The notes under the pieces: generated by a model | Database searches by the model: none | What the model was told of the DNA's origin: nothing | The model's input: only the letters and a program-made list of their open reading frames with translations | Part shown: one piece after another, positions 1,350-37,994 of the stretch | How the letters are laid out: every line of letters starts with the position of its first letter | Position numbering within the stretch: position 1 is the stretch's first letter | IMG/VR virus record: IMGVR_UViG_3300035210_000103 | Coordinates: 1-41,239 of that record | DNA length: 41,239 bases | Source of the DNA: a virus | Direction: 5' to 3' (one strand) | Position numbers and translations under genes: made by a program

Positions 1350-1556
1350 CTACACTTTCGAGCGATCCATGACGTGCGTCACGGTATCATTTTTTGCTAA
1401 TGGATATTCTGGCGCGGGCGGCGGCATGCAAATTCCGGCCTGATCGTTACAGATAGTTTTTTGCGATCCGCCGTCGCCGAGCCAGAACGCGCACATTTCG
1501 AGCCAGATGCAGTTGAGGCAGGATGGGTCGATCGGCGCTTCGTCGCTCAAAGCCAC
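1350..1556 (-). CDS. Small cysteine-rich protein
   Basis: A 68-aa product from GTG 1556, overlapping the previous gene by ten bases. Five cysteines occur in the first 45 residues (CLNC, then EMC, then IC and GIC), a spacing that could hold a metal ion. The C-terminal part is polar. I know no family with confidence. Its place in a run of cysteine-containing early proteins (1801-2070, 2081-2296) suggests small zinc-binding adaptors or inhibitors, which is inference. About 120 bases separate it from the next gene. Confidence 0.5.
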   Translation of the reverse strand: MALSDEAPIDPSCLNCIWLEMCAFWLGDGGSQKTICNDQAGICMPPPAPEYPLAKNDTVTHVMDRSKV

Positions 1557-1804
1557 GTCTCGATCAGGTTCTCGTCGTCCTGTTCGCAGCGTGCCAGCAG
1601 CACCAGCCCCGGGGGCAGCTGGTGGCGCAGCTCGTCCAGCGTGGCGGCGCGCAACAGCATGTCGGTGGGCTCCGGGCGCGGCAGCGTGCGCCACAGGCGG
1701 GCAACGTATTCGCCGGGGTAGTCCTCTGTCCCCGGTCCGAACACCGCCCACATGGGCAGCGCCGCGGGGCCCAGGGCATAGTGGCGGCGGGTGGCCCGGC
1801 TCAC
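1547..1804 (-). CDS. Conserved-looking small phage protein
   Basis: An 85-aa product from GTG 1804, which overlaps the TGA of the upstream gene (GTGA). A TTG at 1834 would add ten residues. The sequence contains WAVFGPGTEDYPGEYVARLW, then LDELRHQLPPGLVLLAR and an acidic C-terminus ending ETWL, a pattern I associate with short proteobacterial phage proteins of unknown function. There are no membrane segments. The sequence is clearly protein-like with good codon use, so the gene is likely real though its role is unknown. Confidence 0.65.
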   Translation of the reverse strand: MSRATRRHYALGPAALPMWAVFGPGTEDYPGEYVARLWRTLPRPEPTDMLLRAATLDELRHQLPPGLVLLARCEQDDENLIETWL

Positions 1805-2070
1805 GCGTCGGCCAGCGCGCAGGTCAGCGAGCAATAGACCGCAGGCCCCCGGTACAGCGCCCCGCAGCAGTCACACGCGCGCTCGGAGCAGGAGCCGTCG
1901 CGATAAGCTGCAGCGGGCGATGTGCGGCGCGCCAGGTCGCACAGGACGCGCGCGGTCGCCGCCTCGCTGCCGGTCAGCTCATGCCACCGGGCCCGGTGGC
2001 ATTCAGACCAGGGGCCGCCGGCATGGAACAGCAGCACTGCCTCGGCCAGGCGGTCGGAATCGTCGCTCAT
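1801..2070 (-). CDS. Small zinc-finger-like protein
   Basis: An 89-aa product from ATG 2070, eight bases after a GAGG ribosome-binding site. The C-terminal third carries C-D-C-C-G and then YCSLTC (CxxC...CxxxC spacing), a treble-clef or MYND-like zinc knuckle pattern. The N-terminal half is predicted helical (DSDRLAEAVLLFHAG). Such knuckles usually bind proteins or nucleic acid, but no specific role can be read. It is coupled to its operon neighbour by a four-base overlap. Confidence 0.6.
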   Translation of the reverse strand: MSDDSDRLAEAVLLFHAGGPWSECHRARWHELTGSEAATARVLCDLARRTSPAAAYRDGSCSERACDCCGALYRGPAVYCSLTCALADA

Positions 2071-2080
2071 CTCCGCAGCC

Positions 2081-2296
2081 TCATCCGTCACGGGGGCAAC
2101 GCTTGTTCGCAACCAGCTTCGCCGCCCTGGCGCTGCGCATCAGCTTTCCGCAGCACGGGCAGAGCAGGATCGGGAGCGCGCCGGGGCGCTCGATGACCCA
2201 GGCCGTGCCGCCTTCCGCGGTCGGAACCGGGCATTCCACAACCCGCACCCCATCGTCCCGCTGCAGGCCATCCCATCCGGGCGGGTCATCGCTCAT
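2081..2296 (-). CDS. Small zinc-ribbon protein
   Basis: A 71-aa product from ATG 2296, seven bases after the preceding gene. It contains CPVP, then LLCPCCGKLM followed by an Arg/Ala/Lys helix and a final RCP, the arrangement of a small zinc ribbon (CxxC plus a distal Cys). The family is not recognised. Similar ribbons in phage early regions often act as transcription or nuclease accessory factors; here that is only inference. Confidence 0.55.
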   Translation of the reverse strand: MSDDPPGWDGLQRDDGVRVVECPVPTAEGGTAWVIERPGALPILLCPCCGKLMRSARAAKLVANKRCPRDG

Positions 2297-2303
2297 CGTT
2301 GGA

Positions 2304-2489
2304 TCACTTCTCGCTCTCGCGGCGGCGGGCCAGCTGGCGGACCATGTGCAGCGCGTCGGGATCCACCCAGCCGCGCGCCCGCGCGATCTCCTCGACGGCG
2401 TACCGCTCGCGGTCGCTGAGGTTCTGCAGCGTCGCCTCGTCCTGCAGCCGCGCCGCCATCCTCTGGTCCCAGGCCGTCGCGGTTGCCAT
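2304..2489 (-). CDS. Small helical early protein
   Basis: A 61-aa highly charged, helix-forming product from ATG 2489 behind a GGAGG-like site. It has no cysteines and no membrane segment. The stretch LSDRERYAVEEIARARGW resembles a helix pair, but there is no convincing HTH. It is the first gene after a 130-bp non-coding gap that holds a perfect dyad (2575-2591), so it may have its own promoter. Function unknown. Confidence 0.5.
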   Translation of the reverse strand: MATATAWDQRMAARLQDEATLQNLSDRERYAVEEIARARGWVDPDALHMVRQLARRRESEK

Positions 2490-2574
2490 CGCCGCCTCCC
2501 TGAACGTCCTTTTATCGGCCGTTTCGGCCAGGCGCGACTGACAATCGCATGTTCAAACCGGAACCATCACCCGC

Positions 2575-2591
2575 GATAACGTGCCGTTATC
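2575..2591. promoter_or_regulatory. Perfect 7+3+7 dyad, operator-like
   Basis: GATAACG, a three-base spacer TGC, then CGTTATC form an exact inverted repeat inside the only sizeable gap (2490-2617) of the distal leftward operon. There is no T-run after it in the leftward direction, so it looks more like an operator than a terminator. It could bind the small XRE protein or the winged-helix protein encoded nearby; this is inference. Confidence 0.4.
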
Positions 2592-2617
2592 ACGCGTGCT
2601 GACCGGTGCCGTAATTA

Positions 2618-2890
2618 TCATGGTGTGCGCCATTCGCTCAGGATTGCCTGCGTCCGCTCCACCAGGTCGCGGCGCCGGTCGGCGCGCAGGTTTGGCAGCG
2701 TAGTCCATTGAAACAACAGCAAAATCAGCCCCTTGCTATACGGGATATCGGCCTGCGGAACTTCCGCCAGCATGAAATCGCTGGACGCCAACAGCTTCTC
2801 CAGCTGGCCATCCGACACGCCGTGCGAGGCCTGCACCCATCTGCGGAGCAGGGCCAGCACCGCGGTGTCGGTCGGGCTCTCCTCCGTCAT
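2618..2890 (-). CDS. Hypothetical early protein
   Basis: A 90-aa product from ATG 2890, overlapping the upstream gene's stop (ATGA). It is mostly helical (LALLRRWVQASHGVSDGQLEKLLASSDF), with a hydrophobic GLILLLFQW stretch too short to be a sure membrane span. The C-terminus is basic. No family is recognised. Its direct coupling to the winged-helix gene suggests they are made together. Confidence 0.55.
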   Translation of the reverse strand: MTEESPTDTAVLALLRRWVQASHGVSDGQLEKLLASSDFMLAEVPQADIPYSKGLILLLFQWTTLPNLRADRRRDLVERTQAILSEWRTP

Positions 2891-3117
2891 GGATCCGCCC
2901 GCACCCGGGCCGCGGCGTAGATGCCGGCCGCCGCCCCGTGCCCGCCGCCGCTCCCGCGGACCGGTGCCGATATGCGGGTGACCTCGCCGCGGCTGACCAG
3001 CTCGCGGATCCACGGCCGCACCGTCTCGCGCGGCTTGTTGAGCGCTTCGGCCAGCTCTGAAACCGACCGCGGACGCTCGCGCAGCGCCGCCAGGATCGCG
3101 TCGGTCAGGGCGCTCAA
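2887..3117 (-). CDS. Winged-helix DNA-binding protein
   Basis: A 76-aa product starting at TTG 3117, which overlaps the upstream TGA (TTGA). Residues about 4-50 (DAILAALRERPRSVSELAEALNKPRETVRPWIRELVSRGEVTRI) match the winged-helix plan: helix 1, helix 2, a recognition helix with RETVRPWIREL, and the start of a wing. The tail is glycine/alanine-rich. Its size and place in an early operon fit a small transcription repressor, possibly autoregulatory. The partner operator is unknown. Confidence 0.65.
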   Translation of the reverse strand: MSALTDAILAALRERPRSVSELAEALNKPRETVRPWIRELVSRGEVTRISAPVRGSGGGHGAAAGIYAAARVRADP

Positions 3118-3389
3118 TTCGGGCGCGCCTCGGCCAGCAGCGCGTCGAGCCGGTCGGCCGGCGTGAGGGCCAGCGTCGCGGCCTGCTCGGTGACCCAGGC
3201 CAGCATTCCGGTCGCCGCCTCCTCCGACATGCCGTCCGCGCGCTGGAGGCGCAGCCACAGGCCGACCGAAAGGGCGACTGTGATCGGCCCCGCCGGACGG
3301 TCCGCGTCCGCGTCGCACGCGGCCTGCAGGGCCTGGTCCAGCGCCTGCAGCGCCTCATGTTCCGTCAGCAGCGCCTGATGTTCCGTCAT
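3114..3389 (-). CDS. Hypothetical helical protein
   Basis: A 91-aa product from ATG 3389, overlapping the exonuclease stop codon (ATGA). The N-terminus has a heptad-like duplication (TEHQALLTEHEALQALDQALQ), suggesting a short coiled coil that could oligomerise the protein. The rest is helical and alanine-rich. I do not recognise a family. Confidence 0.55.
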   Translation of the reverse strand: MTEHQALLTEHEALQALDQALQAACDADADRPAGPITVALSVGLWLRLQRADGMSEEAATGMLAWVTEQAATLALTPADRLDALLAEARPN

Positions 3390-6027: not shown

Positions 6028-6863
6028 CCCGGAGGCGGCTGCCGAGGCCCGTCGCCATCGAACGGGAAATCGCCGACCCGTTGCAGCGCGGCGTTGATCA
6101 TCCTGTTCAACCTGGTCAGCGAGCCGTTCTTGAACATCCCGGTTGCCTTTTTTACGTCTTCTGACGTAATGATTTCGAGAACCGACGGCTCGTCCGGGGC
6201 GGCATCCAGACGGGTCTGCAAAACGTCGAGCCACTCGGACTGCGTGGGCCTGCGGGGCTCGGCCGGCGGCGGTGGCGGGGCAGCGGCCCGCGTCGGCGGC
6301 AATTCCTCCTCCTCCTGCCGTCTCCTGGCTTCTTGCCTGTGGTCCTCGAAACCTTCGCTGGGCACTTCCTCGGCGGGCGTGGTCATCAGGCCGGCCTGCA
6401 TCATGATGACGACGTGGGCGAAGGCGCTGCGGGCGGCGCGCGATATCGCTCTGGTCTGTGCCATGGCGCGGATCGCGTAATCAGGGCGCCGAGGATATAC
6501 CTTCACTTTTCCGTATTTGTCTTTTCCCTCGCCGCCATACCAGACCGGCTCGTCGGCCCCCACGTAACCCTCGGCGCTCGAAATGATCATGCCGGTGTCG
6601 GCGCGCATGATGCGGCCGATAGCCGAAAATGATCCGTCCTCATGGCGCTTCACGTCGCCGCTCGACGCCACGCATCCGTGCGCAAGCGCGATTGCCTGCC
6701 ATCCCTCGACCGCAACGTAATTCCTGCCTCCGATGTTTTTTGCGGTCGCCAGCACAATCTCCCTGCAGATCGCCGCGGCGTCGGTGCTGACACGATAGAG
6801 GGCGGCGCCGCTCGACTGCTGCGGCGCGTCCGGCTGCTGGACCGCCGGGACCATGGCGTTCAT
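6024..6863 (-). CDS. Putative phage recombination / single-strand annealing protein
   Basis: About 279 aa; ATG 6863 overlaps the previous TGA, and a GTG at 6866 is also possible. The core includes NYVAVEGWQAIALAHG, then RADTGMIISSAEG and a motif with AQTRAISRAARSAFAHVV followed by TTPAEEVP. The AQTRA...TPAEE pattern recurs in phage proteins sitting beside Gp157 or single-strand-binding genes and is often assigned to recombination or ssDNA binding; I rate that assignment as moderate. A proline-rich linker (about residues 180-200) precedes a small C-terminal domain. The neighbours (Gp157-like protein, helicase, exonuclease) support a DNA recombination module. Confidence 0.55.
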   Translation of the reverse strand: MNAMVPAVQQPDAPQQSSGAALYRVSTDAAAICREIVLATAKNIGGRNYVAVEGWQAIALAHGCVASSGDVKRHEDGSFSAIGRIMRADTGMIISSAEGYVGADEPVWYGGEGKDKYGKVKVYPRRPDYAIRAMAQTRAISRAARSAFAHVVIMMQAGLMTTPAEEVPSEGFEDHRQEARRRQEEEELPPTRAAAPPPPPAEPRRPTQSEWLDVLQTRLDAAPDEPSVLEIITSEDVKKATGMFKNGSLTRLNRMINAALQRVGDFPFDGDGPRQPPPG

Positions 6864-7378
6864 CACTTCACCCGCACTGTGAAAATCGGCGGCGCCGGCT
6901 GGATTTCGACCCCGGGCGGAATACCGCCGGCCTTAATCGCCTTGTCGATCAGGGCCATGTCCGGGCTGCGCTCGACTTTCACCCGCACCAGGGCTTCGGG
7001 AAGCAGCTCGGCGTTGACCACCACGGCCTTGCTGCGCGGCGAGCCGATCGTCGCCGAAAACTCGGTGTCCACGATCTTATGCGTCTCGATCGCGGTCATC
7101 ATGTCGCGCGCCAGGCCGCGGGCGGCCTCCTTGCGCGCGGCATAGCGGGACTTGCGGGCCTGCAGGTCGCGGATGCGGGCGGCGATGGCCTCCTCGAAAG
7201 CCTCGTCCTCGATGGCGCTTCGGATGACCCGCCGGATCAGGTCGGGCGCCTCGGTTTCGCTGTCGAGCGCAAGCAGCAGGTCGTCGTGGTCAAGCTCCGG
7301 GTCCTCGGCGCGCAGCCTGGCGGCGAACTGCTGCGCGTGGCTCATCGCCATCTCGATGCGGACCGGCGAGACGTTCAT
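6863..7378 (-). CDS. Gp157-like phage protein
   Basis: A 171-aa product from ATG 7378. The central charged helix (EAFEEAIAARIRDLQARKSR and on) and the C-terminal pattern AELLPEALVRVKVERSPDMALIDKAIKAGG...PGVEI match the siphovirus Gp157 family: a coiled coil followed by a beta-rich end with the LP-x-L-R-V-K and AIKAG motifs. Family members neighbour recombinases and SSBs. One Streptococcus member was linked to phage resistance, but the molecular role is unclear. It overlaps both neighbours by four bases. Confidence 0.75.
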   Translation of the reverse strand: MNVSPVRIEMAMSHAQQFAARLRAEDPELDHDDLLLALDSETEAPDLIRRVIRSAIEDEAFEEAIAARIRDLQARKSRYAARKEAARGLARDMMTAIETHKIVDTEFSATIGSPRSKAVVVNAELLPEALVRVKVERSPDMALIDKAIKAGGIPPGVEIQPAPPIFTVRVK

Positions 7379-7874: not shown

Positions 7875-8195
7875 TTAGTCGGTTTCGCCCCCCGGGGGGC
7901 GTTGACTGCCCTCCTTCTGGGCAGATCCCTTTGCCGCCTGACTCAAATAGTCCGCCAGGTTCCGCGGCAACGCGGAAGACCTCTCCAAATAGATCCAGTC
8001 CGCGCTGATACCGTAGCGCTTGTCGAATACTTCGATCCATTGTGGATCGGGGTAATGTTTGCCCCTGCACCAGTGACCCAGCCTCGATTTGTCGATGCCG
8101 GTTGCTGCCGCAGCCTCGCTGTACGATACGCCCAGCCCCTCCAGCGCGAGCCGGATGCGGTTGCCTATGATCTGTCGATGCCGTTCCACGTCCAT
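7875..8195 (-). CDS. CI-type XRE repressor (HTH only)
   Basis: A 106-aa product from ATG 8195. Residues about 8-65 form an HTH_3/XRE domain: IGNRIRLALEGLGVSYSEAAAATGIDKSRLGHWCRGKHYPDPQWIEVFDKRYGISADWIYL, with the turn at AATGID and a conserved DWIY end. There is no S24 peptidase domain, so it is not a LexA-type self-cleaving repressor; induction would need an antirepressor or another signal. No ribosome-binding site is evident before the ATG, as with leaderless lambda cI. It is flanked by the two operator clusters and divergent from the Cro-like gene. Confidence 0.8.
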   Translation of the reverse strand: MDVERHRQIIGNRIRLALEGLGVSYSEAAAATGIDKSRLGHWCRGKHYPDPQWIEVFDKRYGISADWIYLERSSALPRNLADYLSQAAKGSAQKEGSQRPPGGETD

Positions 8196-8253
8196 GGCGG
8201 CGAATATGACGCAACGCGGCGCGGCTGGATAGGATAACTCCTCACTTGCGGTC

Positions 8254-8294
8254 GTAGAGGGGTTCTCCTTTCCTGACGAGGAGGAACCCTCTAC
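8254..8294. promoter_or_regulatory. Right operator cluster (OR-like)
   Basis: Two inverted copies of the operator motif, GTAGAGGGGTTCTCC at 8254-8268 and, on the minus strand, GTAGAGGGTTCCTCC ending near 8280, lie between the repressor and the Cro-like gene. They face each other across a short spacer. Occupancy here would decide between repressor (leftward) and Cro (rightward) transcription. Confidence 0.7.
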
Positions 8295-8303
8295 GGTCGG
8301 CGG

Positions 8304-8567
8304 ATGACCAGCCGCGACCCGATCCTGCAGCAGCTGATTGACCGGCACCGGCTGCGCGGGCTGGCGGCGCCGCTCGGCATCACGCGCAGCGCGGTGCAGA
8401 AGTGGCGGCGCGTGCCTCCCCAGCATGTGCCCGCCCTGGCGGTGCACCTGGGCCTGCGGCGGCATGACCTGCGGCCCGATCTGTGGGGGCCGGGGCGGCA
8501 GCGCCGGTCGTCTGACCTCGTTGGCGACGAGGACGACACCGGAGAAACCATGGAGGCTGCAGCGTGA
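8304..8567 (+). CDS. Cro / YdaS-like antirepressor-type HTH protein
   Basis: An 87-aa product from ATG 8304. Residues about 6-50 (ILQQLIDRHRLRGLAAPLGITRSAVQKWRRVPPQHVPALAVHLGL) have the YdaS/Cro signature: short helices, GIT-x-SAV-x-KW, and the V-P-x-x-H/R motif. The tail is acidic. It is the first rightward gene, directly behind the OR-like sites, exactly where lambdoid phages keep cro. It probably binds the same operators and favours lytic growth. Confidence 0.75.
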   Translation: MTSRDPILQQLIDRHRLRGLAAPLGITRSAVQKWRRVPPQHVPALAVHLGLRRHDLRPDLWGPGRQRRSSDLVGDEDDTGETMEAAA

Positions 8568-9058
8568 ACAGATCCGAGCACGCCCTGCAGCGGGCATGCG
8601 CAAAATACCTTACCAGGGCGCTGCCGGCCGACGCGGTCTGGACCGCCATAGACCCCGGCGCGGAGACGCTGGACCTGGAGGAGGGCGCCAACCGCAAGGC
8701 TCGCGGCGTGCAGGCCGGGTGGCCGGATCTGGTCGTGCTGTGGCGCGGCGTTCTGCACGGAATCGAATTGAAATCGAAAACCGGCCGGCTGAGCCTGGAG
8801 CAGAAAAAGGTCGCCGCGGCCATCCTCGCCGCGAATGGGCGATACCGGCTGATCCGCACCGTGCAGGCCCTGGCTGACGTGCTGGCCCTGTGGGGCCTGC
8901 CGTGCTGCCTGAACAACCACGAAATGAGAGCGGAACAATACGACGCCATGCTGCAGGAGCGGCTGCAGCGTCCCCGGAAGCCCGCCGGCAAGGCCCGCAA
9001 ACCGGCCGCGGCCCGCGCGATCAGCCGCATGCACGCGGCAGGGTTATGGAGGCCGTAG
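8564..9058 (+). CDS. VRR-NUC domain nuclease
   Basis: A 164-aa product from GTG 8564, overlapping the previous stop. The PD-(D/E)xK nuclease core is visible: ARGVQAGWPDLVVL with Asp55, followed by HGIELKSKTGRLSLEQKK with the E68-x-K70 pair and the downstream SxEQ helix. This is the VRR-NUC family, found as stand-alone phage nucleases cutting structured DNA. The C-terminal 40 residues are basic and alanine/arginine-rich, probably for DNA contact. Its location beside the replication ATPase suggests processing of replication or recombination intermediates. Confidence 0.8.
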   Translation: MNRSEHALQRACAKYLTRALPADAVWTAIDPGAETLDLEEGANRKARGVQAGWPDLVVLWRGVLHGIELKSKTGRLSLEQKKVAAAILAANGRYRLIRTVQALADVLALWGLPCCLNNHEMRAEQYDAMLQERLQRPRKPAGKARKPAAARAISRMHAAGLWRP

Positions 9059-21944: not shown

Positions 21945-23042
21945 ATGACCGCTGCACGCAGCGTAATCAACCTGGCGCTGCGCTATTCGGGCGTCGTTGG
22001 CGTGGGGCAAACACCCCTCGCCGAGGACGTGAACGACAGCCTGGTGCTGCTCAACAGCATGATCGGCCAATGGCAGCGCCAGCGTGCCGTGCAGGTCATC
22101 CCCGGCGTGCTCGATACGTTTCCGAGCCTGTTCACCGACGTGCCTTCGTGGACCGGCCAGGAGAACGTGCTGCTCGTCGCGCTCGCCGAGCGGCTGCGCG
22201 CGGCCTACGGCCTGCCGCCGGATGAGCAGATCAGCAAGGCGGCGGACAGCGCGGTGCAGCTGCTGCAGGCCAACAACCTGCACCAGCAGCCGCCGGACCT
22301 GCCGGGGCTGGCGACGACCTGCGGGCACGTCGTCCGCCTGGCGCTGCGCGCGTGCGGGCGGGTGAATGACGCGCAGGGGGTGTCGGACGCGTCGCAGGAC
22401 ATGGCGGACGGCATGGCGCTGCTGGTGTCGATGCTGGCGCAATGGCAGCGCCAGCGGTGGCTGGTGCCGCACCTGACCGAGGCCGTGCTGCTCTCCACCG
22501 GCGCCGCGTCCTACGGTATCGGGCCTGGCGAGGCGTTCGACACGTCCCGCCCGGTGCGGATCGACAGCGCCTTCGTGCGCCTCATGTCGAGTCCGGGGCC
22601 GGTGCGGCTCGACTATCCGCTGGTGGTGATCGAAAGCCGGGAGGACTACAGCGAAATATCTCTTAAGAACATGACCACGCTGCCGGCCGCGGTGTTCCTC
22701 GACACCGGCTGGCCGACCGGCACGGTGTATGTGTGGCCGGTGCCGACGGCCAGCCTTTACGAGCTGCACCTGTTCACGGCGGCGGCGCTGCCGGTCTATG
22801 CCGCCCCGACCGATCCGCTGGGCCTGCCGCCGGAATACACCGACGCGGTGGTCTACAACCTGGCGCTGCGCGTCGCCGCGGCCACCGCCAGCCAGGTGTC
22901 GCCGGGCGTGCTGGCCCTCGCCAGGGCCACGCTCGAGACGGTGCGCGGCGCCAACGCGCAGATGAAGAACCTGGACCTGCCGCCCGGCCTGGCGGGGCGC
23001 AACACGCCCACCGCGGCCCGCCTGATCGGCGGGTGGATCTGA
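21945..23042 (+). CDS. P22 gp4-like head-tail connector with internal duplication
   Basis: A 365-aa product from ATG 21945 (GAGG site). P22 gp4 is 166 aa. The pattern RSVINLALRYSGVVG...DVNDSLVLLNSMIGQWQRQR (residues 5-47) recurs as GHVVRLALRACGRVN...DMADGMALLVSMLAQWQRQR (126-168). The closing helices also recur: LLVALAERLRAAYGLP near 76 and VVYNLALRVAAATA near 305. The second unit contains the full beta-rich middle; the first lacks it. The family binds the portal ring and starts the tail. The duplication may have arisen in the ancestor of this gene. Confidence 0.75.
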   Translation: MTAARSVINLALRYSGVVGVGQTPLAEDVNDSLVLLNSMIGQWQRQRAVQVIPGVLDTFPSLFTDVPSWTGQENVLLVALAERLRAAYGLPPDEQISKAADSAVQLLQANNLHQQPPDLPGLATTCGHVVRLALRACGRVNDAQGVSDASQDMADGMALLVSMLAQWQRQRWLVPHLTEAVLLSTGAASYGIGPGEAFDTSRPVRIDSAFVRLMSSPGPVRLDYPLVVIESREDYSEISLKNMTTLPAAVFLDTGWPTGTVYVWPVPTASLYELHLFTAAALPVYAAPTDPLGLPPEYTDAVVYNLALRVAAATASQVSPGVLALARATLETVRGANAQMKNLDLPPGLAGRNTPTAARLIGGWI

Positions 23043-24271
23043 TGGCGCGCACGCAGCTCATGGGCGGCGCTTATGAGGCGCGCAGCTATATTGCGAGCGC
23101 GCAACGGTGCCTTAACCTGTTCTGCGAGCCGATGCCGCACGGCAACCCGAACTCGCCGACCACCGGCCAGGGTGAGCCGGCGCCCTATGCCTATTACCCC
23201 ACCCCGGGCCTGCGTCCGCTCTGCAGCCTCGCGCAGGGGCCGGTGCGGGGCATCTGGTCGAGCACCGACGGCCGCGTCTATGCCGTGGGCGCCGACACGG
23301 TGTACCGCGTGGGCGCGGATTGGAGCGTGACGGCCATCGGCAGCCTGCCGCCGGGCCGCACCACGCCGGTGTCGATGGCGGACAACGGGCTGGACGTGCT
23401 GCTGGTGGACGGCTCGCCCTGGGGATGGACGATCCGCCTGGCCGACGACGCATTCGCCAGGCTGGACAGCAGCGGCGGCGCGTTCCGGGGCGGCACCCGG
23501 GTCGATTATCTCGATACGTTTTTCATTCTGAATGCGCCCGGAACGCCGCAATTTTACGCCAGCAACAGCCTGTCGACCGTGTTCGACCCGCTGTATTTCG
23601 CGAACAAGGAAGCGTTTTCCGACATGCTGGTGGTGGCTGCGGTCGCGAAGCTCGAAATCTGGCTGGTCGGAACGAAAAGCACTGAAATATATTTCAATTC
23701 CGGAAAGGCCGATTTTCCTTTCGAGCGCCAGCCGAGCGTTTTCATCGACCACGGCACGTGCGCGCCTTACAGCGTGGTGTCGGTCGACAACAACGTGCTG
23801 TGGCTTTCGCAGGACCGCGAGGGCCGTGGCATCGTGGTGCGCGGGGCCGGATACACGGCCTCGCGGATCTCCACCTATGCCATCGAGGATGACCTGTCGC
23901 GGTATCGGAACCTCACCGACGCGATCGGCGTGGCGTATCAGGTCGCCGGACACTGGTTCTATTCGTTGTCGTTTCCGACAGACGACCGCACATGGTGCTA
24001 CGACATCGGCGTGGGCCAGTGGCATGAACTGGCGACGCTCGACAGCAACGGCACCGAGCACCGCCACCGGGCGAACTGCAGCGCGGTGGCTCATGGCCAG
24101 GTCGTGGTCGGCGACTATGTGACCGGCGAAATCCACGCACTGGACCCGGACTGCTACACCGACGCCGGCATGCCGATAAAGCGGCAGCGGGCGTTTCCGC
24201 ACATCATGGCGGACGGCAAGCGGGTCGCCTTCCATTGCCTGCAGGCCGACATGCAGGCGGGGCGCGACTGA
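23042..24271 (+). CDS. P22 gp10-like DNA-stabilisation protein, N-terminal piece
   Basis: A 409-aa product from ATG 23042 (overlaps the previous TGA). It starts like gp10 homologues (GGAYEARSYIASAQRCLNLFCEPMP) and continues with SLYFANKEAFSDMLVVAAVAKLEIWLVGTKSTEIYFNSG-type motifs and LWLSQDREGRGIV, ending FHCLQADMQAGRD and then TGA. Family members are about 470 aa and go on with a D-x-S-D-D-x-G end domain; that part lies 1.2 kb away in the next gene (24271-25746). 409 plus about 67 residues gives 476, against 472 in P22. The protein plugs the portal-tail hub and keeps packaged DNA in. Confidence 0.85.
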   Translation: MARTQLMGGAYEARSYIASAQRCLNLFCEPMPHGNPNSPTTGQGEPAPYAYYPTPGLRPLCSLAQGPVRGIWSSTDGRVYAVGADTVYRVGADWSVTAIGSLPPGRTTPVSMADNGLDVLLVDGSPWGWTIRLADDAFARLDSSGGAFRGGTRVDYLDTFFILNAPGTPQFYASNSLSTVFDPLYFANKEAFSDMLVVAAVAKLEIWLVGTKSTEIYFNSGKADFPFERQPSVFIDHGTCAPYSVVSVDNNVLWLSQDREGRGIVVRGAGYTASRISTYAIEDDLSRYRNLTDAIGVAYQVAGHWFYSLSFPTDDRTWCYDIGVGQWHELATLDSNGTEHRHRANCSAVAHGQVVVGDYVTGEIHALDPDCYTDAGMPIKRQRAFPHIMADGKRVAFHCLQADMQAGRD

Positions 24272-25746
24272 TGCCATCGACCCTCACAAACTACCTTGCC
24301 ATTTCGCCGCTCGATGCGGTCAAGGCCGAAGGCAACGCCGGCATCACGCCATTTACGTTCCGCGTGGACCTGACGACGGGCCTGACGCCCTCGACGGTGC
24401 ATTGGGACCACGGCACCCATGGCGGCGGCGTGTTCATATTTGTTTCGGGTGCATCATCCCTTGGCGACGTGTTCGCGCGCTCGACGGACGGCCTGGCCTG
24501 GTCGCTGATCCCGATGCCCCGCGACAGCTGGCTCGATGTGGCTTATGGCAACGGCAGGTTCGTCGCCATCACCGGGTCGATCGGCACCAGCACCCGGGCC
24601 GCGGTGTCGACGGACGGCGGGCTGACCTGGTCGCCGGCAGCCCTGCCGTTCCCGTGCGCCTGGCAGTCCATCGCGTTCGGCGCCGGCATGTTCGTCGCGG
24701 TCGCCTTTCAGTCCGCCGACTACGCGACCTCTCCGGACGGCATCACCTGGACGGCCCGCACGCTCGACGGCGGAAGCGAAACGGTCGCCTACATCGAATA
24801 TGGCAATGGCATATTCGTTGCCACAGGCGATGCTTTCATGTCGGGCAAGGTCAAGACCTCGCCGGACGGCATCACCTGGACGCTGCGCGACGCCGGGGCC
24901 GGCGCCGTCACCTGGATGGATATCGCCTTCGGCGGGGGGCGGTTCTTCCTGCCTGGCATAGGGGCCGGCGGCGCGTGGTCGAGCGACGGCATCACCTGGC
25001 ACGCCACCACGCTGCCGGCCTCGACCGCGTGGCGCCGGGCGGCCTGCGTCGCCGGGGTGTGGGTGTGCGTCACCGGCGACGGCAGGGTGGCGACGACGCC
25101 GGACATGGTGACGTGGACGCTGCGCACGATGACGGCGGCGCCGTATAACGGCATCGCCTCGAGCGGCAGCCGGCTGGTCGCGGCCGGCTATTCCGGGGTT
25201 GACTTCGCGAGCACCTCGGACGGGATGGCCTGGACCTATTGGGACGGCGTGCCGGCTGGCGGGGGAGACGCGGGCGCGCATTGGCAGGTCAGCGGCTCCG
25301 GTGACAGCCCGGCACTGCCCGGCGAGTTTTTCGGGGGCGCCTATCCATCCGGTTCGGTCGCGTTCCCGGGCGGCGCCACGCCGCAGACGATAACGGTGCA
25401 GGTTGCCGGCAACCGGACTGTGCAGGAAGACCTTTCATTTGCGGTGACGTTGAGCGCGCCGGTCAACGCCTCGATCAGCACGGCGACCGCGATAGGCACC
25501 ATCCTCAACGACGATTTTCCGCCGATCGACAAGCCGCTGGTGTTCTTGGATTGGAGCGACGACCGGGGCAAAAGCTATGGAAACCCGGTCGCGCAGCCGC
25601 TCGGCGATGTGGGCGAGTACCGGACCTCGCTGCAGTTCCGGCGCCTCGGCATGGCGCGCGACCGGGTGTTCAGGCTGACCTGGTCAACGCCCGCCCCGAC
25701 CGCCCTGCAGGCCGCGTTTGTCGATGCCGCGCCGGCAGTGAGCTGA
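24271..25746 (+). CDS. Calx-beta / seven-motif Asp-box propeller / gp10 C-terminal domain protein
   Basis: A 491-aa product from ATG 24271 (TGATG overlap with gp10N). Residues 7-46 look like the first half of a Calx-beta domain (AVKAEGNAGITPFTF). Residues 47-325 hold seven Asp-box-like S/T-x-D-x-x-x-W motifs starting at 71, 113, 154, 197, 237, 276 and 315, spaced 39-43, each after a F/V-V-A-x-G strand: a likely seven-bladed propeller. Residues 336-416 are the Calx-beta second half (AHWQVSGSGDSPA...IGTILNDD). Residues 421-488 are the gp10 end (LDWSDDRGKSYGN...FRRLGMARDRVFRL). It is probably a surface-exposed, sugar- or receptor-facing addition to the tail hub. Confidence 0.8.
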   Translation: MPSTLTNYLAISPLDAVKAEGNAGITPFTFRVDLTTGLTPSTVHWDHGTHGGGVFIFVSGASSLGDVFARSTDGLAWSLIPMPRDSWLDVAYGNGRFVAITGSIGTSTRAAVSTDGGLTWSPAALPFPCAWQSIAFGAGMFVAVAFQSADYATSPDGITWTARTLDGGSETVAYIEYGNGIFVATGDAFMSGKVKTSPDGITWTLRDAGAGAVTWMDIAFGGGRFFLPGIGAGGAWSSDGITWHATTLPASTAWRRAACVAGVWVCVTGDGRVATTPDMVTWTLRTMTAAPYNGIASSGSRLVAAGYSGVDFASTSDGMAWTYWDGVPAGGGDAGAHWQVSGSGDSPALPGEFFGGAYPSGSVAFPGGATPQTITVQVAGNRTVQEDLSFAVTLSAPVNASISTATAIGTILNDDFPPIDKPLVFLDWSDDRGKSYGNPVAQPLGDVGEYRTSLQFRRLGMARDRVFRLTWSTPAPTALQAAFVDAAPAVS

Positions 25747-25756
25747 GAGGAAAAAC

Positions 25757-26512
25757 ATGGTTGCGCTGCTCCCTCCCGCCGAGCTGCAATTCTGCGACGG
25801 GGCCGGCGTGCCCCTCGCGGGCGGCACGATCGACACATTCACGCCCGGAACGACCACGCGCAAGACGACCTGGTCTGACCCTGCCGGAACGGTGTCGAAC
25901 ACCAACCCCGTGACGCTAGACAGCGCCGGACGCTGCGTCCTCTATGGGGACGGGGCCTATCGGTGCGTGCTGAAGGACAGCGCCGGCAACACGGTCTGGG
26001 ACAAGCAGGCCAGCACGCTGGTGAGTGTCGCCATGGCGCCGGTCGTTATCGCGCCGGACCTGGCCACCGCCCGCGCCGCCCTCGGCATCGACGGTCTAAT
26101 CGGCGCGGAGACGACAAGGGCCCTGGCCGCGGAGGCGGCGCTGGCGTCCTCGCAGGCGGGGTTTGCGAGCGCGGCCAGCGTGACCGCGGAGACGGCGCGG
26201 GCCGAGGCCGCGGAAGCCGCCGAGGTCGCCAGGGCCACCGCGGCCGAGGCCGAGCTGGCCAACTCGATCGGGCTGTCGGTCAAGGTGATGGCCGGATCCG
26301 GCACGACCGACGCGAGCGGGTATTGCCGGGTGGAGTTCTCCCCCGCGTTCGCCAGCGTGCACGCCTTCGTCGCGACCGTGGCCGCCGCCGCGGCGCTGTC
26401 GGTTTCGACCGTGGCCAACACTGACGTGTCCGGCGCTGACGTTCGGATGATCACGACAGTTAGTTACGAGCCGGCAATGCTTGGCTTCACCTGGATAGCG
26501 GTTGGAACGTGA
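25757..26512 (+). CDS. Tail fibre/spike protein with N-terminal virion-attachment motif
   Basis: A 251-aa product from ATG 25757. Its start (ALLPPAELQFCDGAGVPLAGGTIDTFTPGTTTRKTTW, then GRCVLYGDGAYRCVLKDSAGNTVWD) matches the head-binding-like N-terminus found on many tail fibres and spikes. Residues about 110-170 are an Ala/Glu repeat (TRALAAEAALASS, TARAEAAEAAEVARATAAEAE), a trimeric coiled coil. The C-terminal 80 residues form a beta-type tip ending in YEPAMLGFTWIAVGT. It is short, so it may be an adaptor onto which the later fibres assemble. Confidence 0.7.
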   Translation: MVALLPPAELQFCDGAGVPLAGGTIDTFTPGTTTRKTTWSDPAGTVSNTNPVTLDSAGRCVLYGDGAYRCVLKDSAGNTVWDKQASTLVSVAMAPVVIAPDLATARAALGIDGLIGAETTRALAAEAALASSQAGFASAASVTAETARAEAAEAAEVARATAAEAELANSIGLSVKVMAGSGTTDASGYCRVEFSPAFASVHAFVATVAAAAALSVSTVANTDVSGADVRMITTVSYEPAMLGFTWIAVGT

Positions 26513-35429: not shown

Positions 35430-37994
35430 GTGCCCAGCCCCGACCAACAGGCTTTCATCGACACCTACGGGCCGCTTGCTGACGACATTGCCGCGGCCAC
35501 CGGCCTGCACCGTTCCGTTGTGCTCGGCATTGCGGCGCAGGAAACCGGCTGGGGCAAGCATGTCTCGGGGCACAACATATTCGGCATTTCGCCGACCGAC
35601 GCGAGCGGCCGGCAGTATGTCGCTGGCTACCCCGACACCGGCCAGGCGGGGCAGGCATTTGTCGACCTGGTGCGGCGGCGCTACGGCGACGCGGCGAAGC
35701 AGAGCGATCCTGATGCGCAGGTCACCGCGATTGTCCGCGGCGGCTACAACAGCGCGGACCCCAACTACGTCCCGTCCGTCACCGGGCACGCCCGCGCAAT
35801 CAGAGGACAGGCACCCGTGGCATCAGCAGCGAAGCCGGCGGCCGAGGATCCCGACGTGGCCGCCGGCCGCGCGCACGTCGAGAGGTTCACCAGCGGCAAA
35901 CCGGCGCCGGTTGCCGCGCCGGCCGCGAACGACGACCCCGACGTGGCCGCGGGCCGGGCGCATGTCGAGCGGGTGGCCAGCGCGCCCGATGAGCCGGCCA
36001 GCTCCAGGCCCCTGCCGGCCGATCCGAATATCCTTATGCGCGCGGCGGATTGGATGGGGTCAGGGGGGCCGAGCTGGGTGGAGCGCAACCTGCCCACCGT
36101 TCACCGCTTCGCCGCCGGGGCAACGCAGGGCGCGCGGGACGTGGTGGCCAGCGGCGCGGACCTGGCGCGCTGGGTCGATGACCGCGTGCCCCTCCTGCGG
36201 TCGCTCGACCAGGCAAACCCGCTGGTGGGCGACCCCGCCCAACTGGCCGAGGCCATGCAGGCGCAGCGCGGGGCGTTTGAGCAAAGCCCGGCAGGGCAGA
36301 GCACCGCCGGCCAGATCGGACGCGTCGGCGGGCAGATCGTCGCCGCATCTCCGCTCCTCGGCCCGGTGGGGGAGGTTGCCGGTGCGGCGCTGGCCCCGGT
36401 GTCCGCGGCTGCCCGGGCTGGGACTAATTTCCTCGCTTCGGGGGCTCCCGCGGTGATCCAGCCGGTGGTGCGCGGGGTGGCCAACGCGGGCAACTATCTC
36501 ACGCGCATGGCCGGGCTCGGCGGCACCGAGGGCGCGGCGTTCGGCGCCGCCACCGAGGGCGGCACCGACAGGCCGCTGGGCGAGAACGTCAGGGAGAACG
36601 CGGCCCTCGGCGCGGTCATTGCGCCGGCGGGCGGCGTGGCGCTCAAGGCGCTGGGGGCCGCCAGCAGCGCCGCCGGCAAGACCGCCGCCTATGTGACGGG
36701 CAGCGGGGCCAGGAAGGCGGTTGACGAGGCGGTGGGGGCCAGGGTCGAGGCCGCAGGCCCTCCCGTGGACGCGCCCGCGCCGGGCGGCACCGCGCCGGCC
36801 GAAAGCACCGTGGGCGCTGCCTGGCTGCCGCCGGAAGAGCGTTATGTGATGGAGCACGGCGAACGGCTGGCCAACTGGCGGCGCAACATCACCCTGGGCC
36901 AGGCCGAGCGTCCGCGGCCAAACGACGCGACGCAATACGTGGAGGGATCGAGGCCGACGCTCGCCGAGCAGATGGCGGACCCGCACCTGGCGGCGGTGCA
37001 GCGCCAGGTCGCGCCCGGCAACGCCACCGCCCTGTCGCTCGACACCGCCAACAATGCCGCCCGCCTCGAGCACCTGGACAACATGAGAGGCGACGCCCCG
37101 TCGCTGCGCCAGGACAGGCTCGCCCGCGGCGCGCAGGCCGACCAGGACCTGGCCGCGGCGTTTGGCGCCAAGCAGGACGTGGATCCGGCCGCGGTCGAGC
37201 GCATCGCCAATCAGATGACGGCGCGGCTGCAGACCCCGCGCGCGGTCGAGAACGACACCCTGCAGGACACGCTGCGGCCGATGATCGCGCGGCTGCGCGA
37301 GGGTGACGGCTTCAAGCTGGACCCGGAGCGGCTCTACGGCGTGCGCGAGCACATCAACAGGGAGCTGCAGAACGCCGCGCGGTCCGAGGACGCGAACGTG
37401 CGCAGCACCGCCGGGCATCTGCGCGACATGAAGAACATGCTCGATGAGGTCATCGAAAGCGGGGCGCAGGGCTATCGCCGGTATCTGCACAATTACGCGT
37501 CGGCATCCCGGCACATCGACACGCAGGAACTGCTGCAGAACATGAACTGGGGGACGGCTGACCAGAAAATCACGCTGGCCGGCGTCAACCGGAACATCGA
37601 CACGATCAAGAAGATGCTCACCGCGGACGGCTGGAACGCCGCCAAGGGCATGAGCGACGCGCAGCTGGAGGGGCTGCTCAACCTGCGCCGCGACCTGGCC
37701 AGGGAGAACGTGCGGACGTGGGCGGCGCCGATCGGCTCGCCCACCGCATTCAACCTCGACCTCGGCGCGCGCCTCGGCATCAATGCCGCGGTCACCGCGG
37801 GCCGGGCGGTGGCGAACCGGATCCCGGGCGGCAACCTGCTGATTGACGCCGCGCAGGGCCGGATCGAGGGGTCGAACGCGGAGCGCATGAAGCAGCAATG
37901 GCTGCGGCACCTGTATGGCCAGCGGCCGATGAACCCGCTGGACACGGGGCCTGGCCCGACCCCCACCTGGGGGACCGGCCCGGCGCCGCCCTAG
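35430..37994 (+). CDS. Large ejection protein with N-terminal peptidoglycan-hydrolase domain
   Basis: An 854-aa product from GTG 35430. Residues about 5-125 are a glucosaminidase/lytic-transglycosylase-type domain: VLGIAAQETGWGKHVSGHNIFGI with likely catalytic Glu38, then YPDTGQAGQAFVDLV and GGYNSADPNYV. Next come two copies of DPDVAAGRAHVER (about 140-185), a long Ala/Gly-rich helical body with hydrophobic stretches (380-430), and a C-terminal helical domain. It should be ejected and cut the wall locally so DNA can pass. Its stop shares CTAG with the convergent gene at 37991. Confidence 0.75.
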   Translation: MPSPDQQAFIDTYGPLADDIAAATGLHRSVVLGIAAQETGWGKHVSGHNIFGISPTDASGRQYVAGYPDTGQAGQAFVDLVRRRYGDAAKQSDPDAQVTAIVRGGYNSADPNYVPSVTGHARAIRGQAPVASAAKPAAEDPDVAAGRAHVERFTSGKPAPVAAPAANDDPDVAAGRAHVERVASAPDEPASSRPLPADPNILMRAADWMGSGGPSWVERNLPTVHRFAAGATQGARDVVASGADLARWVDDRVPLLRSLDQANPLVGDPAQLAEAMQAQRGAFEQSPAGQSTAGQIGRVGGQIVAASPLLGPVGEVAGAALAPVSAAARAGTNFLASGAPAVIQPVVRGVANAGNYLTRMAGLGGTEGAAFGAATEGGTDRPLGENVRENAALGAVIAPAGGVALKALGAASSAAGKTAAYVTGSGARKAVDEAVGARVEAAGPPVDAPAPGGTAPAESTVGAAWLPPEERYVMEHGERLANWRRNITLGQAERPRPNDATQYVEGSRPTLAEQMADPHLAAVQRQVAPGNATALSLDTANNAARLEHLDNMRGDAPSLRQDRLARGAQADQDLAAAFGAKQDVDPAAVERIANQMTARLQTPRAVENDTLQDTLRPMIARLREGDGFKLDPERLYGVREHINRELQNAARSEDANVRSTAGHLRDMKNMLDEVIESGAQGYRRYLHNYASASRHIDTQELLQNMNWGTADQKITLAGVNRNIDTIKKMLTADGWNAAKGMSDAQLEGLLNLRRDLARENVRTWAAPIGSPTAFNLDLGARLGINAAVTAGRAVANRIPGGNLLIDAAQGRIEGSNAERMKQQWLRHLYGQRPMNPLDTGPGPTPTWGTGPAPP

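Follow-up and report, generated by a model that had tools for sequence, protein, structure and literature searches.

The window analysed here is the whole of a 41,239-nucleotide (nt) stretch of viral DNA (IMG/VR record IMGVR_UViG_3300035210_000103, positions 1 to 41,239). Its subject is a homologue of the phage P22 tail hub protein gp10 that is divided between two overlapping open reading frames (ORFs), the second of which also carries a large domain module. The components of the split locus are as follows.

23042..24271, plus strand: gp10N (ORF1), 409 amino acids (aa), P22 gp10-like tail hub (head closure Hc3); matches PHROG 578 and aligns with intact gp10s
24269..24273, plus strand: TGATG, in which the gp10N stop overlaps the ORF2 start (sequence and slippery-site scan)
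24271..25746, plus strand: ORF2, 491 aa, a Calx-beta domain with a nested propeller, then gp10C (PHROG 578, homologue search, AlphaFold2)
24289..24405, plus strand: first half of the Calx-beta domain (ORF2 residues 7-45), adjoining the second half in three Azospirillum Calx-beta repeats
24403..25230, plus strand: predicted seven-bladed Asp-box beta-propeller (ORF2 residues 45-320; AlphaFold2 and VIA-align)
24481..25233, plus strand: full span of seven Asp-box motifs (residues 71, 113, 154, 197, 237, 276 and 315; pattern scan and direct reading)
25279..25518, plus strand: second half of the Calx-beta domain (ORF2 residues 337-416; homologue searches, weak Pfam Calx-beta match)
25528..25743, plus strand: gp10C, the missing C-terminal strands of gp10 (ORF2 residues 420-491; PHROG 578, model of an unsplit homologue versus P22 gp10)

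ORF1 is a gp10 without its last ~66 residues; it ends in TGA, and the frame of ORF2 is -1 relative to it. The PHROG 578 profile (head closure Hc3, P22 gp10 family; 486 positions) matches ORF1 over positions 4-397 (E 2.5e-84) and ORF2 residues 420-485 over positions 403-468 (E 4e-8), so that the two matches adjoin at a single point of the family. In an alignment with 12 intact gp10s (457-491 aa), the break lies in the loop between the MQxGxG motif and the LxWSDDxG strand; the phage relatives compared for this purpose all carry an intact gp10 within that length range. Taken together, the two ORFs are by sequence homology one gp10, classed here as a split gp10, with the chain that is continuous elsewhere interrupted at 24269-24273. 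The junction is identical, with zero base differences, in two further IMG/VR contigs from other samples, and is therefore not a local error. A preliminary description of this DNA, made from the sequence alone, had proposed the split with its stop/start overlap, the displaced gp10 end at the C-terminus of ORF2, and a summed length close to that of P22 gp10 (about 476 versus 472 aa in that description; 409 plus ~68-75 aa versus 471-472 aa here), and all three agree with the present coordinates, frames and profile matches. The WSDDxGxTW motif, conserved in the gp10C of most relatives, is itself Asp-box-like.

The remainder of ORF2 is recognized, from homology and modelling, as one Calx-beta domain interrupted by a seven-bladed propeller, the architecture that the preliminary description had read from the sequence. 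The Asp-boxes are spaced 39-43 residues apart; ORF2 has 6 matches to the strict pattern [ST].D[GM]..W, compared with 0.03 per shuffle, and the seventh box (STDGGLTW), which has one extra residue relative to the strict pattern, was identified by eye. The AlphaFold2 model of ORF2 contains seven blades over residues 45-320 (predicted local distance difference test (pLDDT) mostly 70-92), with 27 strands listed and the last strand of blade 7 too short for listing, and aligns with known seven-bladed propellers (VIA-align Z 27.9, 266 aa, 2.5 A for virginiamycin B lyase). When ORF2 residues 9-45 and 334-421 were searched separately, their matches were adjacent in each of three Azospirillum thermophilum Calx-beta repeats, and the spliced domain matched the Azospirillum Calx-beta array with 52.5% identity (E 2e-24). 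The Pfam Calx-beta family (PF03160) scored below its gathering score of 27 (12.7 bits for the whole protein, 16.0 spliced, 16.8 for the second half); since splicing gave no gain over the second half alone, the Pfam comparison was replaced by the homologue search, and the domain is named Calx-beta by homology rather than by the Pfam rule. The Calx-beta halves have pLDDT values under 50 in the AlphaFold2 model and are not confident, because the alignment had almost no Calx-beta rows. The sialidase FRIP motif is absent from ORF2, where neither RIP nor FRxP was found, and carbohydrate binding by this putative binding propeller is a guess.

L256, another phage contig, encodes a Mu gp48-like baseplate protein (PF10076, E 2.3e-27) that has this nested module at its N-terminus, with 38% identity to the window module over ~408 residues (E 2e-51). 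That ORF (positions 1363-3213) likewise starts at a TGATG overlap; the L256 module is fused to PF10076, whereas that of the window is fused to gp10C. The module is thus common to unrelated tail proteins. A scan for further copies of the nested module returned only loci that were already known, and no phage record matched in the search with the spliced Calx-beta domain. A short near-repeat at the propeller edges (GTGCATTGG/GCGCATTGG) was considered as an insertion scar and dropped, because in L256, which shares the older junction, the first copy is missing.

The relation of gp10C to the hub fold can be seen in a natural unsplit relative (L019, ~56% identical). Folded with 63 relatives, it yields a confident gp10 around its insert and superposes on P22 gp10 (8eap_D) from residue 2 to 472 (Z 37.6, 446 aa, 2.4 A); the tail following the insert (residues 699-764) forms five strands of the gp10 fold in the model and matches the end of P22 gp10. 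The window protein is of the same family as the P22 gp10 and Sf6 gp8 hubs (PDB 8eap, 8u10, 7sg7; PHROG 578), probably shares their fold, has the same place after gp4, and its summed parts have the usual length. However, P22 gp10 and Sf6 gp8 are single unbroken chains of 471-472 aa, while the window has two chains with a ~415-aa module between the gp10 parts. The nozzle or muzzle proteins of T7, SU10 and crAss001 (gp12, gp17 and gp44, respectively) also combine a seven-bladed propeller with a platform or ring-joining domain, and the platform of T7 and SU10 is built of N- and C-terminal strands and contacts the adaptor (PMC6702177, PMC9509320, PMC10172136 for the architecture; PMC6702177, PMC9509320 for the platform). 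These proteins resemble the window protein in bearing extra inserted domains but differ in carrying them at or between propeller blades 2 and 3 (PMC6702177, PMC9509320, PMC10172136), whereas the window insert lies in a C-terminal platform loop, and in being unsplit.

A survey of the gp10 family, composed of two viral-contig scans and one genome scan, yielded 159 distinct genes in which both ends could be read; as the scans favour relatives of the window, the counts are not frequencies in nature. No insert was found in 102 genes, while 43 have an insert of about 15-100 aa, 4 have more than 200 aa within one ORF (the unsplit L018, L019, L150 and L152, all in the same loop), and 10 are split. Inserts at the C-terminal platform loop reach ~540 aa, and elsewhere in the 394-position N-part none exceeded 21 aa among 175 loci. 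The platform loop is therefore the only place in gp10 observed to take large inserts. The inserted domains differ (e.g., Gly_rich_2 in L047, fn3 in L139, Cadherin_3 in L133) and include several unnamed families. A LamG label for the modules of L019, L130 and L151 was based on resemblance by eye; with no match in Pfam, PHROGs or (for L019) PDB sequences, these modules were left unnamed. Several other types of loop content were observed along the way. Inserts of ~100 aa in L049, L051 and L061 carry a dockerin-like calcium loop (GDVDNTG..; Pfam Dockerin_1 is weak, E 0.014 in L061), and several gp10 loops (among L054-L093) contain short inserts of repeated LxTESGDxLxTE hairpin-like units. A further ~190-aa domain family, without a library match, lies between gp10N and the split at the ORF1 ends of L129, L130, L133, L151 and L153, and also within the fused insert of L152.

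Two of the 10 split sequences are copies of the window's own gene, leaving nine distinct split genes; this recurrence could not be seen in the preliminary description, which covered one stretch of DNA. Besides the window, split gp10s are found in L129, L130/L131, L133/L134, L135, L139, L151, L153 and the distant L047. Their stop/start arrangements vary (TGATG, TAGTG, GTGA, TAAaATG, or a stop followed by GTG or ATG 9 or 25 nt on), as do the frame offsets (-1, +1 and 0). On a tree of 90 gp10N sequences the split label must change five times, and well-supported branches force at least 4 of these changes; either gain or loss could underlie each of them, and splits that cluster may go back to a single origin. 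The nearest gp10 relatives of the window, L135 and L139 (weak branch support, 86/52), are also split and carry unrelated domains. In the genome scan, prophage gp10 was unsplit wherever it was readable, except for an in-frame stop in Dyella. This stop, a TAG inside the gp10C (..WSNYIT*) of a Dyella jiangningensis prophage (L105/L158), could reflect either decay or an unusual end.

Comparison of closely related contigs demonstrates that the insert and gp10C are exchanged together. Long stretches flanking the locus are 96-97% identical between L129 and L130. Their homology breaks off at the gp10N stop codon and is restored downstream of the gp10C stop codon, immediately behind it in L130 and only past an extra HNH endonuclease gene in L129 (positions 6234-6926; PF01844, E 6e-11), which lies directly behind the swapped cassette. 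With swap boundaries at both stop codons, the insert and gp10C have moved as a unit. Between these two contigs the module has 51% aa identity and gp10C 87%, and synonymous divergence (dS) is 2.2 in gp10C versus 0.02 in gp10N. The comparison of L133 with L130 has this same upstream breakpoint, and the homology between L018 and L133 breaks at the end of gp10N and resumes past the gp10 stop. L133 also contains an extra gene (7998-8732, minus strand) that by eye resembles a homing-type endonuclease and has no Pfam match. For 25 pairs with a split or a big insert, drawn from about four lineages and hence not independent, dS is about 5 times higher in gp10C than in gp10N (2.12 versus 0.41), compared with 0.57 versus 0.44 in pairs without inserts. 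Purifying selection acts on gp10C in the split genes, with an omega of 0.06 in both the L130/L153 and the L129/L130 comparison. The divergence and the constraint together indicate that gp10C moves along with the module and keeps its function.

The genes on either side of the split locus are:

21945..23042, plus strand: gp4-like adaptor, 365 aa, upstream of gp10N (Pfam P22_Tail-4, E 6.9e-8)
25757..26512, plus strand: downstream conserved gene; most of the relatives compared have a homologue behind their gp10C or intact gp10, and in relatives it is the far edge of the swapped cassette

In the P22 virion gp10 is a hexamer that sits between gp4 and the needle; in the window, gp4 followed by gp10 is seen as a gene order. 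The TGA of the adaptor overlaps the gp10N ATG, again as TGATG. The adaptor matches P22_Tail-4/Ad3 most strongly only near residues 286-342 and has a long N-terminal extension. Further along, positions 35430-37994 encode a protein of 854 aa whose N-terminal part is a glucosaminidase domain (PF01832, E 2e-9) and which may be a lytic protein that is ejected.

The arrangement is probably best explained by the two polypeptides reassembling one hub subunit, with gp10C serving as the docking tag of a replaceable module. ORF1 would supply the lumen-lining propeller of the gp10 subunit and part of its platform (ring-joining) domain, and ORF2 the missing C-terminal strands, preceded by the large module. 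Production of the two chains would be coupled through the TGATG overlap, and they would join by strand complementation; the tail strands of the L019 model and the way in which the T7 and SU10 platforms are built suggest that gp10C completes the platform in trans. Up to six copies of the module could then project from the hub near gp4, and swapping the module with gp10C as one unit would change what the tail hub displays. Re-association and the stoichiometry of the chains are thus proposed, as is an outward, adhesive or receptor-binding role for the module, which is suggested by the domain types and by analogy with tail-fibre mosaicism. A possible re-association and a displayed domain had both been put forward in the preliminary description, and the present reading agrees with them. 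In tail fibres a conserved N-terminal anchor is combined with a C-terminal receptor domain that is swapped (PMC10386132). The window-type arrangement likewise has a conserved anchor and an exchanged display part, but its anchor is C-terminal, is a piece of the hub, and moves with the swapped gene.

Other explanations place the function or the origin of the split elsewhere. The functional protein could be a ~900-aa gp10 fusion made by a programmed -1 frameshift near position 24270; the ORF2 frame is open for 244 nt ahead of the junction, and relatives have unsplit fused versions. However, the scan of this 244-nt overlap detected no canonical slippery heptamer (X_XXY_YYZ), and a start codon lies at or just past the stop in all split genes. 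The variety of frames and stop/start arrangements among the other split genes, together with a second in-frame stop in L135, means that frameshifting cannot explain all of the splits, and as the source of the window's hub it is very unlikely. A split gene is also the usual sign of sequencing or assembly error or of decay, and the gp10C frames of L105 and L149 are indeed broken, but an origin of this kind is already contradicted, and is the least credible of the alternatives, given a junction shared without a base difference by three contigs from different samples, nine distinct split genes, and an omega of ~0.06 for gp10C in split relatives. Alternatively, gp10N alone may make the hub, with ORF2 as an accessory fibre whose gp10C serves only to attach it to the adaptor or a subset of the hub subunits. 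The ORF2s of L133, L139 and L151 do resemble free-standing adhesin genes with their own starts. Against this, every locus without a gp10C match either runs off its contig (L124, L137, L154) or has a broken gp10N frame (L126, L161), so that none of the surveyed loci shows a clean hub lacking gp10C, and the five gp10C strands of the L019 model belong to the same fold and fit the P22 gp10 end. An accessory fibre is accordingly considered unlikely, though it keeps some weight.

The remaining alternative concerns history and is compatible with reassembly of the hub from two chains. The preliminary description envisaged insertion of the propeller into a Calx-beta domain and of both into gp10, followed by a gene split in this lineage. 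The nesting is real and fused inserts exist in relatives, but L256 has the nested module outside gp10, the modules of split relatives are unrelated to it, gp10C is swapped along with the insert, and no close relative was found whose single gp10 ORF contains this module in fused form. That order of events is consequently rather improbable, and the sequences are better explained by a swap at a locus that had been split beforehand, because the module occurs elsewhere, L135 and L139 are split with unrelated modules, and swaps between sister contigs are seen directly.

Several points weigh against reassembly of the hub from a detachable, displayed module. The split hub is described here from genes and models, and any binding role of the modules is putative. 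The insert of the L019 model has a pLDDT under 50, so the model does not fix its position. The evidence for swapping comes from about four related lineages that do not include the window; lacking a near-identical relative that carries a different module, the window cannot show a swap of its own. The chances are about even that a clade of P22-like phages has made the hub a two-chain socket, in which a detachable gp10C tag allows adhesin genes to be exchanged in their entirety by recombination, possibly with help from neighbouring HNH endonucleases, as a natural form of split-protein complementation for modular tail display.

Hub proteins are generally regarded as conserved single-chain genome gates. 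Nozzle proteins with inserted domains and the swapping of receptor-binding parts have precedents; a split hub whose proposed docking piece lies at the C-terminus, and which is exchanged at the level of the gene, is a new variation on these. The literature searched, of which coverage was partial and included few subscription journals, contained no description of a split gp10, an inserted gp10 or this cassette, and nothing linking Calx-beta with a phage tail and a propeller. The repeated splitting of the hub and its single insert-tolerant loop point to the hub itself as a display site. If so, adhesion or host-range mosaicism would have a second route that has gone unrecognised; such a hub would also open the assembly of split proteins in a virion machine to testing, and would account for gp10C fragments missed by annotation. 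A putative surface domain that is carried on the second piece of the hub and exchanged between related phages as a whole gene suggests an unrecognised way for phages to alter their tail display.

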